Source: Pseudothermotoga hypogea DSM 11164 = NBRC 106472 (GTDB taxonomy: Bacteria > Thermotogota > Thermotogae > Thermotogales > DSM-5069). Taken from it: DNA of 64,000 nt. Location of the stretch: assembly GCF_000816145.1 (NCBI RefSeq), contig NZ_CP007141.1, positions 310,001 through 374,000 on the forward strand, written 5' to 3'. The position numbers and the translations under genes were made by a program. The notes below the pieces were generated by a model. It had not been told where the DNA came from. It saw only the letters and a list, made by a program, of their open reading frames with translations, and did not search any database. Below, one piece after another: positions 9,311 through 52,867 of this stretch. Each line of letters begins with the position of its first letter. Within the stretch, counting starts at the first letter, position 1.

Positions 9311-10071
9311 GACCTTACGGTCAACATTTTCTCAAGTGTGAAGATGTGGCGCTCGAACTCGTGGACAGGTTGAACCCCCGCACCGATGACGTTGTTGTCG
9401 AGATAGGTTGCGGGAAAGGCTTCCTTACAAGGTTTGTTGCCCAGAGGGGTTGTCGGCTCGTCTGTTACGAAATCGACGAATCTCTGAGCGAAGAGTTCAA
9501 GAGGAACGTACCTTTCGAAAACGTCGAGCTCAGATTGAAAGATTTCCTCGAGGTAGGAACCAAAGAAATCGAGAGTGCACGACTGTGCTATGGTAGCATC
9601 CCATACCAAATATCTTCAAAAATCGTTCGCAAAATGATCGAGCTTGGTTTCGAGAGATGTCTTTTCATAGTTCAAAAAGAATTTGCAGAGAAGCTTGTCC
9701 TGGGTCGAGAAAGAAGAAAGCATACTCTGATCACTCTGCTGAGCCAGACGTACTTCAATGTCTCAATCCTTCGGCGAGTGCCAAAACGATGCTTCGAACC
9801 TCCTCCAAAAGTTGATTCAGTCATGATCGAGCTCGTTAGAAAAGATGTAGAAGTGGATCTGGACAGCTACGAAGATTTCCTAAAAAGGCTTTTCTTGAGG
9901 CCGAACAGGAGCGCGAAGGCAGTTCTCAAAGAGATGGGTGTGGACCAGTGTGAGGCTTTCGAAGATGCGAGAATCTGGGATTTGAATGTCGAACAGGCGC
10001 TCAGTATTTATATGAGGTGGTCGGATGACGAGAGAAGAACTCTTCGAAACCGTTCTGAATTCGATCGTTGA
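9307..10071 (+). CDS. rsmA: 16S rRNA (adenine1518-N6/adenine1519-N6)-dimethyltransferase
   Basis: KsgA/RsmA family, 254 residues, SAM-dependent dimethylation of two adjacent adenines in helix 45 of 16S rRNA. Seen: GQHFL at the N-terminus, SAM motif [12 protein letters not shown] (30-41), acidic EID at 55-57, and C-terminal PPPKVDS. Odd point: the catalytic motif IV, normally NLPY, reads GSIPY (96-100), with Ser in place of Asn. GTG start overlaps the upstream stop. The 3' end overlaps the next gene by 47 bases in another frame. Confidence 0.87.
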
Positions 10072-24112: not shown

Positions 24113-26413
24113 ATAGAAGTTCACACGTTGGAAAGACTCGACTACGACAAGTTCTTATCCTTGCTCGCAAACTATGCTGTCACACAGCTTGGAAAAAAGT
24201 TTGTTCGTTCGTTGAGACCCAAGAAAGATCCCACACAGGAACTGAAGTTCGTGGAAGAAACCATAGAGTTGTTGAGGTCTTCCGAGAGCTTGCTTCCCAG
24301 TAACGCTGGCAGTGTGGACGTAGAAGATGTCTTGACGAAACTGAACTCGGGTTCGATCCTCGAACCACAGGAGCTGTTGAGGATCGCAGATGCCGTTGCT
24401 GTGGTCAGAGTTTTGAAGGAGAGGCTCGAGAGACTGCCAGATACCTTCACGATGAAGATGCTGGCTCAAGCTGTCGAGCCTGCCAAGCATGTTGTTGAGG
24501 AGATTCATAGATGCGTTGATACAAACGGCTGGGTAAAAGACGAAGCGTCTGAGAACTTGAAGGAGATAAGACACCAGATGAGGTCCACTCTGTCGGAAAT
24601 CAAGAAGAAGAGTGATTCTTTCATTAAGGCGAACAAAGTCTTCTTGCAAGATCCCATCTGCGTTCTCAGAGACGGTAGGCACGTCTTTCCCATTAAGGCC
24701 AGTTACAAAGGACAGGTTAAAGGAATTGTTCATGCGCTTTCGTCCTCATCAGCGACTTGCTTCGTCGAGCCCGACGATTTCGTCCCCCTGAACAACACGC
24801 TTTACGAGCTCAGGGAGGAAGAACAAAGAGAGATAAACAGGATTCTGAGGGAACTGACCACACTCGTCAGGCAGAACGTCAGACGAATCGAAGAGGGCCT
24901 GAACTTCGTTGCGACTGTCGATTCTCTCCATGCCAGGGGCCTGTTCGCCATCGACCAGAAGGCCATCGTCGTCTATCCCTCATCGAGAAAGGTCGTGAGA
25001 GTCGTTCAGGCCAGACATCCCTTGCTCGATCGCTCCAGGGTCGTGCCCATAGATCTGGTCCTACCCGAAGACAAATACGGTTTGATCCTCACAGGGCCCA
25101 ACACTGGGGGAAAGACGGTTTCCCTCAAAACGATAGGCCTCTTTTGCTGCATGATGATGGCTGCGATTCCCCTACCCTGCGAACACGGAAGTGAGATCTT
25201 TGCCTTTGAGAGCATCTTTGCGGATATCGGTGACGAGCAGAGCATAGAACAGAACTTGAGCACATTTTCATCACACTTGAGAAACATCGTGCTTGCGCTC
25301 GAATCGGCCAGCGAGAATAGCCTGGTCCTCCTCGATGAGCTGGGCGCTGGAACCGACCCAGTGGAGGGGGCTGCTCTTGGACTCGCCGTGATAGAACAGT
25401 TGAAACGGATAGGTTGCAAATTCATTGTAACAACCCACCTGACACCGATAAAACTCCGCGCTGTCAACGACGAAAAACTGATGAGCGCTTCTCTGGAGTT
25501 CGATCCCGAAACGCTGAGGCCGACTTATCGAATCCTCATGGGTGTGCCCGGTGGTTCCCACGCACTCGAGATAGCCCAGAGGCTGGGGCTCGACGAGACT
25601 GTACTCGAGATGGCCAGGAATTATCTGGGAAAAGATTACTTTGAAGTGGAAAAAGTTGTGGAAGAGTATCAAAAACAGTTGGTTCTCATGGAAAAGAGGA
25701 TCGAAGAACTCGAGGCCGAGCGGGCCGAGCTCGAAAAGCTAAAGCAGGATTACGAACAGAAATATCAGGAACTGAAGCAAAAAAAGATAGAAGAGCTCGA
25801 CAAAGAACTCAAGCAACTGTACGATTACATAAAGCAAGCTAAAAGGGATGTCGATGAGACCATACGTTCGATCAGAAGTAAGAAAGATCTGGCGAGCCTC
25901 AGGAGCGCATCGAAGCAGTTCGAAAACCATGTGGTGAAGGTGAAACAGATACAACTCAATCAGGAACCCGCTGAAGAATCACAGATATCGATCGGTGACA
26001 CGGTGAGACTGAGAAGCGGGGATGCGATTGGAAAGGTCGTCGAAGTGAGGGATGACAGGTATATCGTCGATTTCAACGGATTGAGGCTGGAGGCACGTGC
26101 GAAGAACCTGGTAAAAGTGGCCCGAAAAGGAACACAAGTTCAACAGGCAATCCATGCGATCAAACCTGATTTGAAAAAACCAGAGATTGATGTGCGTGGC
26201 TTGACCGTCGAGGAGGCAGAACCTTTGATAGAGAAGTTCATCGACAATTTACTCATGTCTGATTTCAGGATCGGTTACATCATACACGGCAAGGGGACGG
26301 GCAGGCTCGCCGTTGGTATTTGGGAAATATTGAGAAGAGATAGCAGGGTCAAGCGTTACAGGTTTGGTACCTCAAGCGAGGGTGGAACAGGTGTGACGGT
26401 GGTCGAAATATGA
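24113..26413 (+). CDS. mutS2: endonuclease MutS2
   Basis: About 766 residues: MutS core and clamp, ABC-type ATPase (GPNTGGKTVSLK; DELGAGTDPVEGAAL; VTTHL), a long coiled region (about 520-620), and a C-terminal Smr nuclease domain (IDVRGLTVEEAEP, IIHGKGTGRL). MutS2 acts on recombination intermediates and stalled or collided ribosomes. Start choice: GGAGGTG (24099-24105) is 7 bases from ATA 24113 but 22 from the first TTG (24128), and no ATG, GTG or other TTG lies in frame after the upstream gene's stop, so initiation at AUA is proposed. If wrong, the gene starts at TTG 24128. Confidence 0.93.
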   Translation: MEVHTLERLDYDKFLSLLANYAVTQLGKKFVRSLRPKKDPTQELKFVEETIELLRSSESLLPSNAGSVDVEDVLTKLNSGSILEPQELLRIADAVAVVRVLKERLERLPDTFTMKMLAQAVEPAKHVVEEIHRCVDTNGWVKDEASENLKEIRHQMRSTLSEIKKKSDSFIKANKVFLQDPICVLRDGRHVFPIKASYKGQVKGIVHALSSSSATCFVEPDDFVPLNNTLYELREEEQREINRILRELTTLVRQNVRRIEEGLNFVATVDSLHARGLFAIDQKAIVVYPSSRKVVRVVQARHPLLDRSRVVPIDLVLPEDKYGLILTGPNTGGKTVSLKTIGLFCCMMMAAIPLPCEHGSEIFAFESIFADIGDEQSIEQNLSTFSSHLRNIVLALESASENSLVLLDELGAGTDPVEGAALGLAVIEQLKRIGCKFIVTTHLTPIKLRAVNDEKLMSASLEFDPETLRPTYRILMGVPGGSHALEIAQRLGLDETVLEMARNYLGKDYFEVEKVVEEYQKQLVLMEKRIEELEAERAELEKLKQDYEQKYQELKQKKIEELDKELKQLYDYIKQAKRDVDETIRSIRSKKDLASLRSASKQFENHVVKVKQIQLNQEPAEESQISIGDTVRLRSGDAIGKVVEVRDDRYIVDFNGLRLEARAKNLVKVARKGTQVQQAIHAIKPDLKKPEIDVRGLTVEEAEPLIEKFIDNLLMSDFRIGYIIHGKGTGRLAVGIWEILRRDSRVKRYRFGTSSEGGTGVTVVEI

Positions 26414-28503
26414 AAAGTGTTTTCGCGTTAGACGTTGGAACGAGGAAGGTAGCGGGACTCATCGGAACTTTCGAAGACGAAGTTTTGACTGTCGTCGACT
26501 ACGAATCTATGGAGCATCCGGTGAGGAGCATGCTGGATGGCCAGATACACGACATCGGGAGCGTCGCGAGGATTGTTGAGAAGATCAAGAAGAACCTCGA
26601 GAGTCGGAATGATACCATGCTCGAAGAAGTTGCAGTTGCGGTCGCAGGAAGATACCTGAAGACACAGATCGTCGAAGCCAGCACAAAGGTTCCCACCGGC
26701 GTGGTCGATGAGAAGATACTGAAAGAACTTGAAGCACGTGCTCTGGCGCAGATTTCTTTTTCAGACGAATCTGGGGTCAATCTCTACTGTGCGGGCTACT
26801 CTGTTCTGGAATACAAGCTCGACGGTTTCTGGATCAAGAACCCTCTTGGCCATAGAGGCGATGAGCTTTACACCAAGCTCATCGTTGCGATGTTGCCCAA
26901 CCAAGTCATAGATGCGATGATCAGCGCACTTCATCTCGCCGGTTTGAGGTGCTCCTTTCTGACCCTCGAACCCATGGCAGCACTGGAGGTGGCTCTGCCA
27001 GATGATCTGAGGTTTTTGAACATAGCCTTGGTTGACATCGGGGCGGGCACGAGCGACATCGCAATCGCGAAGGGTGGCACGGTCCTCGGTTACGACATGG
27101 TCGCACTTGCCGGCGACGAGATAACGGAGGCCATAGCGAAACACTACTTGCTCGACTTCAAAACGGCAGAGATGCTCAAGAGAAAAATCGAGTCCACGCA
27201 GACCATCGAGGTGAACAACCTCACAGGTGAAGCGATACTCGTAGAGAGATCACAACTGGAGAGAATTATAGATCCGATCGTCACACAGATCGCAGAGAAC
27301 ATAGCTCAGCGCATAGAGGCGTTGAACCTGGGTAAACCCAGCGCCGTCCTGCTGGTTGGTGGAGGGGCGAAGCTTTCGCTTTTGAGAGAAAGGATCGCTG
27401 AAGTGCTGAAACTTCCGAAAGAGCGGGTAGCGCTCAAATCGGTTGAGGAGTTTGAAAGGATCAAGTCAATCAAGGAAGGTTTCGTCGGAAGTGAGTTCGT
27501 CACTCTGGCGGGCATTGCGTACATGAAGGCGAAAGAGCTTGGTTCCATCTACGACGTGGTTAGATTGAACGGCGAAGAAGTGCGTTTGTTGAATTTCGGT
27601 AGAGCTCCGACGGTCTTGCAGCTGCTCACCCAGTCTGGTTACAGTATAAGAGACCTCATAGGCGAAGTCAGGCCGTCGTTCGTCTACACGCTGAACGGTG
27701 AGGCAAGACTCGTGCGGGGATCTATCAGAAAGAAGTATCGTGTAAAAATCAACGGCAGGGAATGCGCGCTTCATGAAACGTTGAAGACTGGAGATGAAGT
27801 CGAAGTGGAGTTTCTTGAGGGTGAAACACCCGAATCACCGATGTTGAAGGATTTGGTCAAGCCTGTTCGAGTTTTTCTCAACGGGAGCGAGATCTTTGAA
27901 ATTCTTCCCACCGTTTTGGTGAACGGCCAGAACGTCGCAGATCTGGAAAGGTTCGTCAGCGACGGTGACGACATCGTCGTTTCCTGGCCAAAGAAAGAGG
28001 AGATAGAGCAGCTTTTGAACGAAAAAGTTGGCCTTGTGAAATGTACCGTGAACGGTGAAATCAAAGTCGTGCCAAGATTCAAGTTGACGCTCCAAAGGTT
28101 TGAAGAAACGGAACAGGGATTTTTCTACCATTTCGAAGGAGTCGAGATGAAAGTGAAAGATCTTCTTGCTCAACCTCTCAGTGTCAGGGTGAAGTTCAAT
28201 GGCAGGCAGATCGAGATCACTCAGAAGAACCACATGGTCATGGTCAACGGCGAATATGTCAGCTCAGACAGGGTTCTTTCAGATGGCATGAGCATTCAAC
28301 TGCCTCGGTTCGAACCCATCGTGGCCGACGTACTGGCCTGCGTGGAGATAAACACGAGAAACCTGAAAGACTACAGGATCACACTGAACGGAAGAGAGGC
28401 AAGTTTCGTGGACCCAATCAAGGAAGGGGACGAAATAGAATTCATCGCAAGCCCAAAGGTTTTGGATGAGCCAGAAAAGTCATCTGAACCTTCCAGAGAA
28501 TGA
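26410..28503 (+). CDS. FtsA/PilM-like actin-fold protein with C-terminal beta-grasp-like repeats
   Basis: 697 residues. Residues 1-400 are an FtsA-like ATPase: ALDVGTRKVAGLIG, VDIGAGTSDIAI, LLVGGGAKLSLL. The C-terminal 300 residues hold repeated short modules with a V-x-[FLI]-N-G-x-E ... L-x-x-G-D-x-[IV]-x-[VF] pattern (about 445-470, 487-527, 595-633, 657-682), like ThiS/MoaD or SLBB beta-grasp folds. Large FtsA-domain proteins of this sort occur in Clostridia and Thermotogae; the function is not established. No membrane-targeting helix is visible. ATG overlaps mutS2 by 4 bases; last gene of the plus block. Confidence 0.75.
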   Translation: MKSVFALDVGTRKVAGLIGTFEDEVLTVVDYESMEHPVRSMLDGQIHDIGSVARIVEKIKKNLESRNDTMLEEVAVAVAGRYLKTQIVEASTKVPTGVVDEKILKELEARALAQISFSDESGVNLYCAGYSVLEYKLDGFWIKNPLGHRGDELYTKLIVAMLPNQVIDAMISALHLAGLRCSFLTLEPMAALEVALPDDLRFLNIALVDIGAGTSDIAIAKGGTVLGYDMVALAGDEITEAIAKHYLLDFKTAEMLKRKIESTQTIEVNNLTGEAILVERSQLERIIDPIVTQIAENIAQRIEALNLGKPSAVLLVGGGAKLSLLRERIAEVLKLPKERVALKSVEEFERIKSIKEGFVGSEFVTLAGIAYMKAKELGSIYDVVRLNGEEVRLLNFGRAPTVLQLLTQSGYSIRDLIGEVRPSFVYTLNGEARLVRGSIRKKYRVKINGRECALHETLKTGDEVEVEFLEGETPESPMLKDLVKPVRVFLNGSEIFEILPTVLVNGQNVADLERFVSDGDDIVVSWPKKEEIEQLLNEKVGLVKCTVNGEIKVVPRFKLTLQRFEETEQGFFYHFEGVEMKVKDLLAQPLSVRVKFNGRQIEITQKNHMVMVNGEYVSSDRVLSDGMSIQLPRFEPIVADVLACVEINTRNLKDYRITLNGREASFVDPIKEGDEIEFIASPKVLDEPEKSSEPSRE

Positions 28504-28822
28504 ATCCAATGAATCCATCGCCAAGAAGACTTCTCCGAGGAATTTTTCCACGTTTCTTGTAAAACTCAACTGCGCTGTTGTTTGTTTGTGTCTCTAACAC
28601 GATCGCACGACAGTTCAGCCCTTGCGTAACTTGCTTGGCTTTTTCGATGAGCATCTTGCCAACGCCTTTGCCACGGTAATCTTCAAGAACCAACAACTCG
28701 TGTATTCCGAGCCTGTTGCTCCAACCTTCATTTGCAACGGTCATCCACGCGACGATCTTTCCATTCACCTCACGTTTTCTGCTACTTTGAAGAAGAGAGA
28801 TTCTCCCCTTTGACACTCCCAA
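28442..28822 (-). pseudogene. GNAT acetyltransferase remnant, 5'-truncated and frameshifted
   Basis: The C-terminal half of a GNAT fold is clear: IVAWMTVANEG, then the acetyl-CoA loop LEDYRGKGVGKMLIEKAK and NNSAVEFYKKRG. The N-terminal half is missing. A preceding stretch that reads RGESLFFKVAENV is in another frame and joins the rest only if a one-base insertion or two-base deletion near 28764-28773 is allowed. The 5' break coincides with the right end of the IS200/IS605-type remnant, and the apparent GTG start lies inside that end. The 3' end overlaps the FtsA-like gene by 62 bases. Most likely non-functional. Confidence 0.7.
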
Positions 28823-29000
28823 TCCCCTGAAGGGGATGGGATTCTTAGCAGCTCTTTAGGCTGCCTTCCATGGAGCATTTGATACTCCATGGCCACAGAG
28901 GTGCGGTTTAAACCTTACACCTCTGGCGGGTGCCAATCCCGCTACTACTTGGGACTTCTTCCCAAGATACCTATGCCAAATGGCATGGTTCCCGTGCTAC
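28811..29000 (-). ncRNA. omegaRNA-like structured remnant of an IS200/IS605 (TnpB) element
   Basis: Read on the minus strand, this stretch is almost entirely hairpins: ATGCC/GGCAT, CTTGGGA/TCCCAAG, GCGGG/CCCGC, CAGAGGTG/CACCTCTG, CCATGGAG/CTCCATGG, GGCAGC/GCTGC, and a terminal ATCCCC-TGAA-GGGGAT hairpin ended by AGTGTCA. The final hairpin followed by GGGAGTGTCA is the familiar right end of TnpB-bearing IS605-type elements, where the omegaRNA scaffold overlaps the tnpB 3' end and the guide begins just past the right end. Here no transposase or complete tnpB is present. The sequence next to the right end (the would-be guide) is the GNAT remnant. Exact 5' limit uncertain. Confidence 0.6.
28856..28996 (-). 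pseudogene. tnpB 3'-terminal remnant (46 codons)
   Basis: An open minus-strand stretch of 46 codons runs from just after a TAG (28997-28999) to TAA (28856-28858). It contains LGKKSQVVAGLAPARG and ends SNAPWKAA, which looks like the variable C-terminal tail of TnpB proteins encoded by the omegaRNA hairpins. No RuvC or zinc-finger motif of TnpB is found upstream, so the body of the gene has been lost. No ribosome binding site or start codon was seen. Confidence 0.5.
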
Positions 29001-29018
29001 AGTGATAACACAAGTGCT

Positions 29019-29065
29019 AATAAAAATCAAGCCCCTTACCCATTCCCCTGAAGAAGAAGGGCTTG
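29019..29065 (-). terminator. possible terminator of the nucleoside transporter operon
   Basis: On the minus strand CAAGCCC and GGGCTTG form a 7-bp stem with a long loop (29028-29065), followed by ATTTTTATT (29019-29027). It lies about 105 bases after the last permease gene. The loop is long for a terminator, and a piece of it (29039-29053) matches the IS605-like right end in 14 of 15 bases, so it could instead be a transposon end. Confidence 0.4.
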
Positions 29066-29169
29066 CGGGGCAGTATTTTCTGTCACGTTCAAAACCGATC
29101 GTTCAAACGCATAAAATACCATCTAACATGAAAAGCATCAACATCGGTGGGTATGTTTTTTCTTTAACT

Positions 29170-30123
29170 TCACTTCTCGTAGGGCACACCGTCAGCCGCA
29201 GGTGGTCGCGTCTTTCCAATGAAGCCAGCAATGACAATCAACGTGACAATGAACGGAAACATGTTGAACAACGGTTTCGTCGTCGATGCAACCCTGAGCA
29301 GTGGACTGCTCTGCAGTTGGTTTGCGAAGGCTTCCGAAAAACCAAACAGTAGGCTGGCCCACATCGCTCCCACGGGATTCCAGTTTCCGAGAATCATCGC
29401 GGCGAGCGCTATGAAACCACGTCCACCGGTCATCAGCTCGCGAAAGTTTCCAACCTCACCCACGCTCAAGAATGCCCCTCCTAACGAGGCCATCACACCA
29501 CTCATGAGCACACCAAAATACCTCACCGCGTACACGTTCACACCGAGTGTGTCCGCAGCCTCCGGGTTTTCTCCCACAGCCCTCATTCTCAGACCCAGTT
29601 TCGTCCTGTAGATGATGAACCAAGCAACAAAAACGGAAGCGAAAGCAATGTATATCATCGGACTCAGCTCACCAATGGACTGCGCTAAGAATCTGTTCTT
29701 CATCAAAAGTGGAATCCTGACCTCTGGGATCTTACCCACGATGTCTGTTTGACCGGGTCTTCCAAAGATGGGTTCCATTAGAAAGCCCGTGACCCCCTGT
29801 GCGAGAAGTATGAGCGCCGTGCCTGAAACTATCTGGTTTCCCCTCCACGTTATGCTTGCCCACGCGTGTAACCACGCCATGCCCAGTCCCACAAGAACGG
29901 CGAAAAGAACCCCGATCCACGCATTTCCCGTCAACCAGGTGAAGACCACTGACACGAAGGCACCCATGAGCATGATACCTTCCAGGGCGATGTTCACAAC
30001 ACCAGTTATCTCACTGAAAACTCCACCCAATGAAGCGAAGACGAGCGGTGTGGCGGCCGTCAGAGTGAGTTTGTAGAACGCTGGATTGGTGAATATGTCT
30101 ATCAGAGCGAGGAAGAGCCTCAT
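29170..30123 (-). CDS. nucleoside ABC transporter permease (NupQ type)
   Basis: 317-residue polytopic permease of the BPD_transp_2 (branched-chain amino acid/nucleoside) family, with about nine membrane segments. Family-specific stretches: GGVFSEITGVVNIALEGIML near the N-terminus and RAVGENPEAADTLGVNVY, the loop that contacts the ATPase. ATG 30123 overlaps the preceding permease by 4 bases. Together with the next three genes it forms a BMP-type nucleoside importer. Confidence 0.9.
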   Translation of the reverse strand: MRLFLALIDIFTNPAFYKLTLTAATPLVFASLGGVFSEITGVVNIALEGIMLMGAFVSVVFTWLTGNAWIGVLFAVLVGLGMAWLHAWASITWRGNQIVSGTALILLAQGVTGFLMEPIFGRPGQTDIVGKIPEVRIPLLMKNRFLAQSIGELSPMIYIAFASVFVAWFIIYRTKLGLRMRAVGENPEAADTLGVNVYAVRYFGVLMSGVMASLGGAFLSVGEVGNFRELMTGGRGFIALAAMILGNWNPVGAMWASLLFGFSEAFANQLQSSPLLRVASTTKPLFNMFPFIVTLIVIAGFIGKTRPPAADGVPYEK

Positions 30124-39865: not shown

Positions 39866-39896
39866 CACCACCCTCTCGGTTCCGGAGAAGGTGGTG
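39866..39896 (-). promoter_or_regulatory. riboswitch expression-platform hairpin
   Basis: Minus-strand CACCACCTTCTC and GAGAGGGTGGTG form a long stem directly after the B12 box and immediately before the btuF ribosome binding site (GGGAGGTG at 39846-39853). There is no U-run, so control of translation initiation seems more likely than transcription termination. Confidence 0.55.
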
Positions 39897-40076
39897 TTTC
39901 TGTCGAAGGGCAGGTCTCCCGGCTTCCGGATCATCCTACTCCCCACGCCTTCCCAGCTTACGCCAGTGGCTCTTGTGGGTTTCGTCCCCGGTTACGGTGG
40001 CGTCCCCGCGCCGGACTTTCACCGGCTTCCCTTTTGAACCTCGTCGGTACCCTCCGACGCCTCGCTGTTCACTTTT
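39897..40076 (-). promoter_or_regulatory. cobalamin riboswitch (aptamer)
   Basis: On the minus strand all core elements of the class I cobalamin riboswitch appear in order: AAAAGGGAAGCCGGTGAAAG followed by TCCGGCGCGGGGACGCC, then GAGCCACTGG and GGGAAGGCG, then the B12 box AGCCGGGAGACCTGCC. It binds adenosylcobalamin or a related form and represses the downstream genes. Its 5' edge touches the stop codon of the upstream membrane-protein gene (40069). Confidence 0.93.
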
Positions 40077-52790: not shown

Positions 52791-52867
52791 TGGAGCAGGC
52801 GGTGGGACTCGAACCCACACCCTCCGCCTTACCAAGGCGGCGCTCCACCGCTTGAAGCTACGCCTGC
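52791..52867 (-). tRNA. tRNA-Thr (GGT anticodon)
   Basis: Minus strand: acceptor GCAGGCG/CGCCTGC, anticodon stem CCGCC/GGCGG with loop TTGGTAA (anticodon GGT, decoding ACC/ACU), T-arm GTGGG-TTCGAGT-CCCAC, discriminator T and encoded CCA (52791-52793). All arms pair. Confidence 0.95.

Follow-up and report, generated by a model that had tools for sequence, protein, structure and literature searches.

The window analysed here is a 64,000-nucleotide stretch of the genome of the heat-loving bacterium Pseudothermotoga hypogea DSM 11164 (2.17 Mb, one contig; G000 where genomes must be told apart). On its minus strand, between the genes of an ABC transporter and the remnant of a GNAT acetyltransferase gene, lies a dense cluster of hairpins. 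Folded as RNA, the minus strand of 28780-29020 forms 7-8 stem-loops at -110 kcal/mol, compared with -73.5 +/- 4.9 kcal/mol for dinucleotide shuffles (z = -7.4; 0 of 200 equally stable). When both strands of the whole window were tiled into 4118 segments of 186 nt, the most stable ones started at 28800 and 28831 on the minus strand. Inverted repeats in the cluster include CTTGGGA/TCCCAAG, CAGAGGTG/CACCTCTG, CCATGGAGTAT/ATGCTCCATGG and ATGCCA/TGGCAT. The first-pass annotation had counted six or seven perfect hairpins here; the minus-strand cluster is real, but some of its hairpins are imperfect and the wording was slightly generous. The hairpin that it placed last is also present, with the loop TTCA on the minus strand (ATCCCC-TTCA-GGGGAT), TGAA being the plus-strand reading. 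Overlapping these hairpins, positions 28856-28996 of the minus strand translate as HGNHAIWHRYLGKKSQVVAGLAPARGVRFKPHLCGHGVSNAPWKAA followed by TAA, exactly 46 codons. This stretch aligns to the C-terminus of full TnpB (...WQRYLGKKSQVVAGLAPVRGVRFKPHLCGHGVSNAPWKAA*), and the earlier proposal that it is a TnpB tail therefore holds.

Elsewhere in the window we noted a cobalamin riboswitch (39892-40069, minus strand, 105.9 bits) and a tRNA gene (52794-52867, minus strand; Rfam, 61.4 bits). On the plus strand at 26410-28503, directly 3' of a mutS2-like gene, lies a gene for an FtsA-like actin-fold protein (697 aa in all, judged by eye) with an unusually long C-terminal extension.

Searching the same genome with the hairpin stretch returned 16 matches, four of which span the whole query from its left end; in most of the others the match is confined to the right part, which there lies 3' of tnpB. 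Gene-less copies of 269-272 bp are found at 338810, 759.8 kb, 773.5 kb and 1173.2 kb. Also present in the genome are two full IS605 elements in which tnpA and tnpB are both intact, several derivatives that carry tnpB, and another family of gene-less elements. The full elements, about 1732 bp in length, encode a 135-aa Y1 TnpA (PF01797, 3.9e-40) and a 429-aa TnpB (PF07282, 2e-21; PF01385, 6e-16); an intact tnpA occurs at three places in the genome, and several places have a tnpB whose long frame is unbroken. The first-pass annotation had suggested comparing the region with its own genome, and that comparison recovered both full IS605 copies and similarity to the tnpB 3' region.

The segment 28810-29081 is a complete 272-bp IS200/IS605-type element without genes, both ends of which are present. 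The element, its parts and its flanks are as follows.

29082-29085, minus strand: target site and presumptive TAM, TGAC, which lies 5' of every family copy with a located left end in the genome
28810-29081, minus strand: complete gene-less IS200/IS605-type element (PATE/MITE) of 272 bp, with four sharp-ended copies in the genome
28983-29081, minus strand: left end, reaching to the region where tnpA formerly started (AACCATGC), 83-88% identical to full-element left ends over 81-92 nt
29028-29071, minus strand: left-end subterminal palindrome GCCCCGCAAGCCC...GGGGCTTG, with the inverted repeat CAAGCCC/GGGCTTG
29002-29030, minus strand: degraded copy of the tnpA promoter, TTGATT-17-TATCAC, read by comparing element sequences
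28970-28990, minus strand: junction hairpin ACCATGCC-ATTT-GGCATAGGT, created by the fusion of left end and tnpB tail and missing in full copies
28856-28996, minus strand: 46-codon open stretch ending SNAPWKAA-TAA, a TnpB C-terminal remnant from about 28982 downwards
28810-28971, minus strand: predicted omegaRNA scaffold of 162 nt, five stem-loops and a closing helix TTGGCAC/GTGTCAA, with covariation
28819-28843, minus strand: right-end subterminal hairpin (DNA fold z -2.1)
28810-28813, minus strand: right terminus TCAA (right cleavage site), where identity between copies stops; near-universal, CCAA in one or two
28794-28809, minus strand: presumptive guide of 16 nt, AGGGGAGAATCTCTCT, supplied by the flank and assigned on the model of the ISDra2 guide of the same length (PMC8612924)
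28547-28771, minus strand: GNAT acetyltransferase remnant, 75-aa core only (Pfam PF00583, 1.1e-15)

The window copy begins TGAC|AGAAAATACTGCCCCGCAAGCCC..., homologous to full-element left ends, and at the tnpA start region this left end is fused to a tnpB tail starting CATTTGGCATAGGTATC. Palindromes at both ends, a fixed TGAC target on the 5' side and the lack of both terminal inverted repeats and a target duplication identify the ends as those of an IS200/IS605 element, although the DNA fold of the left-end palindrome is no more stable than shuffles (z -0.6). No tnpA lies within 28810-29081; it is found only in other copies, and the element is thus not an autonomous member of the family. With no transposase gene, IS605 ends and four copies, the 272-bp element is a PATE (palindrome-associated transposable element) or IS605-type MITE, a gene-less IS200/IS605 derivative of a known kind. 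The first-pass annotation was correct that the transposase and the body of tnpB had been lost from the locus. Its right end is likewise real and extends to TCAA at 28810, but the description of it as solitary fails: a left end adjoins the scaffold, and the 269-272-bp unit occurs at four sites.

Two other explanations were considered. An immobile decayed remnant with a solitary right end would fit the decayed GNAT gene next to it (intact GNAT relatives are about 180 aa; here the N-terminal part is missing and the C-terminal part diverged), and true right-end-only remnants do exist in relatives (G068, G070 and G090 at 1015987). The presence of both ends, of four copies at unrelated sites and of an intact TnpA for action in trans makes this very improbable. 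A host-domesticated regulatory RNA or terminator with no tie to transposition is scarcely credible: the element is strongly structured and follows a same-strand ABC-transporter operon by 85 bp, but the same unit is also found at three other unrelated sites, it has no Rfam family, and no terminator-like site was found inside it.

Insertion sites elsewhere in the genome convey how precisely these elements are bounded. The halves of an rlmN-like gene flank two different IS copies, in the left flank of one (L015) and the right flank of the other (L016). They rejoin at TGAC|GAG, and the protein is colinear over 219/219 codons, with no indel, in seven relatives. Because this joint is colinear, the boundaries are fixed, and insertion proceeds without duplication or loss. 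The two IS605 copies that adjoin the halves of this rlmN-like radical SAM gene lie at 780.5 kb and 704.8 kb, some 75 kb from each other, and recombination between these two copies probably rearranged the chromosome. At 1173 kb (L009, C1:1173200), a gene-less copy with the right terminus CCAA lies within an Ig-like-domain gene; the protein that it interrupts is encoded by a single unbroken frame of 918 aa in G005, a genome of the same genus without any copy of the element family. Compared with this uninterrupted relative, the flanks of the copy, once joined, are shifted out of frame by one base, for which we offer no explanation. For the window copy itself, the N-terminal half of the GNAT gene was not found in the left flank; a sister copy and the rlmN-like joint served as empty sites. 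The full-length unit was absent from all other genomes of the family searched. Copies at different sites imply past movement, and from the sequences we infer that TnpA mobilises the gene-less element in trans.

The hairpins themselves were assessed by covariation among 31 aligned right-end segments from many Thermotogota genomes, with pairs counted on a structure combining the window fold and the long-range TTGGCAC/GTGTCAA helix. In this structure 86.4% of cells were paired, compared with 36-45% when it was slid, a percentage that is biased upward because one of the aligned sequences contributed to the structure. The double changes are firmer, with 124 such cells compared with 48.7 +/- 5.4 after shuffling (0 of 500 shuffles) and 21-34 after sliding; the scaffold covariation score was 0.291 versus 0.178. 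The closing helix returns the last pre-guide bases to the scaffold. As in an omegaRNA, the stretch overlaps the tnpB 3' end and the right end and has conserved secondary structure, and its right-end hairpin stops at about 28818-28819, leaving 8-9 nt to the start of the guide, within the roughly 10 nt expected. Judged by position and covarying pairs, the 162-nt stretch is the omegaRNA scaffold of this Thermotogota TnpB family, as the first-pass annotation had proposed.

The window scaffold is 94-97% identical to the right ends of full copies. Scaffold variants of the gene-less copies also occur in full copies, so that the right ends are mosaic, and gene conversion between the two kinds of copy probably occurs. 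Among the four gene-less copies, the counts are 5/113 in the former coding part of the scaffold versus 14/114 in the left end (p = 0.053), an excess of conservation that is only suggestive.

Full elements carry TGTTATAAT before tnpA, with TATAAT as the -10 box. The sister gene-less copies have TTGATT-17-TATCAT, with the spacer shortened in one, and the -10 box of the window copy reads TATCAC. A scan for consensus promoters found none ahead of the scaffold on the strand of the element. An ABC-transporter permease gene in the same orientation has its end at 29170, which leaves 85 bp to the target site, and no terminator-like site was found between it and the element; the sole minus-strand terminator-like site in the scan is at 28713-28695. 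Read-through from the ABC-transporter genes into the element is plausible.

An intact TnpB is encoded elsewhere in this genome, at loci whose own scaffold is almost identical, so that use in trans, as suggested earlier, is possible. In sequence, this TnpB is matched by TnpB and Cas12f proteins of solved structure, among them ISDra2 TnpB (8bf8/8exa, 5.5e-11). Its RuvC-I (VDLGI) and RuvC-III (HRDGVGA) motifs are present, and RuvC-II reads IVIGDI without the canonical Glu. RuvC-II-rearranged TnpB clades are known, and one such ortholog is active (PMC10278001); given the non-canonical motif, nuclease function in this TnpB is putative and unproven. IVIGD(I/V) or a close variant occupies RuvC-II in nearly all Thermotogota relatives aligned to this family (L012:1838-3127), and GELT in one. 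An AlphaFold model of TnpB from a single sequence had a pLDDT of 44, too low for structural reading. At up to 3 mismatches, the presumptive guide AGGGGAGAATCTCTCT matches no other site in the genome; the empty donor site is thus the one target to be expected.

Rfam has no match at the locus and holds no covariance model of this omegaRNA, so we built one (R1). It identified about 60 places in 20 of 103 Thermotogota genomes, which we sorted by tblastn and by eye. Related copies in Thermotogae do therefore exist, and the absence of similarity that would have told against the original reading did not occur. Gene-less elements with a left end and a full scaffold were found in the following genomes.

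G000: window family, four copies
G000, 647 kb and 1709 kb: second family
G096, at 9399
G091, at 1080974: left palindrome damaged
G006: two copies, left ends degenerate

The second family in G000 (L140 and L123; C1:647077 and 1709319) is a diverged gene-less IS605-type family of two copies, about 236-240 bp long and 77% identical, with TGAC targets and most of the same scaffold hairpins. In the gene-less elements of G000 (both families), G006, G091 and G096, only about 0-13 nt of recognisable tnpB tail precede the scaffold, the G006 elements and the second G000 family being too diverged for exact breakpoints. In the G006 elements one helix is shortened symmetrically. By our count, such scaffold-keeping elements arose in at least four independent events. 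An end-only census, independent of the scaffold, covered 45 genomes and located 32 right ends in 12 of them; a reversed-pattern control gave 0.

Scaffold retention is the rule, though not absolute: departures from it are the 52-bp fusion of G004, a right end of 70 nt in G006 and one tnpB-bearing copy in G007. The G004 locus (L048, C1:302298-302353) is a direct fusion of left and right palindromes between TGAC and TCAA with no scaffold, whereas the G007 copy (L128, C1:1382746-1382867) encodes TnpB but has its own scaffold minus about 40 nt and is possibly a natural scaffold mutant. A pattern scan of a collection of genomes from 85k species matched only the known G006 element, from a Pseudothermotoga MAG; a stricter pattern matched nothing in the same collection and also misses the window's own left end.

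A rival account of these observations is a plain PATE that TnpA moves in trans and in which the omegaRNA part is a passive leftover unused by TnpB, the scaffold having been kept through recent origin, gene conversion or deletions that halt at a hairpin-rich edge. The mosaic right ends and the degraded -10 box are consistent with it, and deletion of the core through palindromes has been described for IS605-type elements (PMC3119063) and is seen in G004; gene conversion with full copies could indeed keep a scaffold intact without function. However, distinct elements in several genomes retain the entire scaffold and nothing more, and the diverged second family and the G006 elements retain most hairpins, in the latter with a helix shortened on both sides. 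We regard this explanation as less likely than the one that follows.

We consider it fairly probable that, besides movement by TnpA in trans, the RNA of the element is loaded by TnpB in trans and thereby protects the insertion. An internal deletion would have fused a left end reaching to the tnpA start with the last ~125 nt of tnpB and the right end. TnpA, acting in trans on the two palindromic ends, would excise the element and insert it 3' of TGAC. Transcription, through ABC-transporter read-through or a residual left-end promoter, would yield an omegaRNA of about 162 nt followed by the flanking 16-nt guide. TnpB from full-length copies would bind this transcript and, after excision, cut the empty donor site (TGAC plus guide), and homologous repair from the sister chromosome would then restore the element. 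Guide-directed cutting of the donor joint with copy-back has been proposed for ISDra2 (PMC8612924). For the window element, transcription and use by TnpB are what we infer, and the degraded -10 box, the lack of a promoter in the scan, the RuvC-II variant and the scaffold-less G004 fusion count against use by TnpB.

More tentatively, and with rather more doubt than conviction, we propose that guide-only transposons are a recurrent IS605-derived class in which the omegaRNA is selected cargo, parasitic on TnpA for movement and on TnpB for site-specific defence. Under this proposal, the repeated deletion boundary at the scaffold 5' end would be the signature of selection. That boundary, recurring near one nucleotide, also predicts the position of the omegaRNA 5' end in Thermotogota, which can be tested. 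If gene-less copies express a working omegaRNA, one cellular TnpB could serve many insertions in trans, the sharing of TnpB's benefit between autonomous and parasitic elements would be seen differently, and small gene-less loci would naturally supply guide RNAs without the protein. If the RNA is unused, the window element is an ordinary PATE.

PATEs are usually described as bare ends, and Meers et al. 2023 (Nature) reportedly mention them beside TnpB elements in Geobacillus. In contrast to ends-only PATEs, the window element retains a 162-nt scaffold. No statement of a PATE-borne omegaRNA as such was found in the literature searched, which is weak evidence of absence, and a text search of PMC10278001 found no gene-less omegaRNA source. 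The sections of PMC3119063 drawn on here describe the PATEs of Haloquadratum walsbyi, which resemble the window element in being gene-less products of IS605-type core deletion with subterminal palindromes, a short target and no target duplication; they differ in being haloarchaeal, with fused termini only, and those sections describe no guide RNA. A 52-bp ISHwa23 core-deletion remnant of Haloquadratum, from the same sections, parallels the G004 element and not the window element. In the halovirus HRTV-DL1, a PATE has one end that is strongly and strand-specifically transcribed, a lead for transcription of such elements; it is a 489-bp element of an archaeal virus and is not shown as an omegaRNA in the part of PMC10544981 consulted. 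The nearest architecture in the sources covered is the PATE-like element of Halanaerobium hydrogeniformans, about 271 nt long, with a left-end portion of 28 nt, no tnpA, 58 nt from the 3' end of tnpB and a complete right end of 160 nt (excerpts of PMC7290912); it is a single copy in another phylum, and these excerpts do not discuss the omegaRNA implication. Among systems with both protein and RNA, the TnpB survey that includes AmaTnpB (PMC10278001) likewise describes scaffold hairpins with a conserved 3' stem, there trimmed by TnpB from its own mRNA. The ISDra2 reRNA/omegaRNA (PMC8612924) is similarly an RNA of about 150 nt from the tnpB 3' end and right end, with a 16-nt guide from the flank and a TAM that is the transposition target, but its TAM is TTGAT rather than TGAC, its sequence is different, and one element encodes both proteins.
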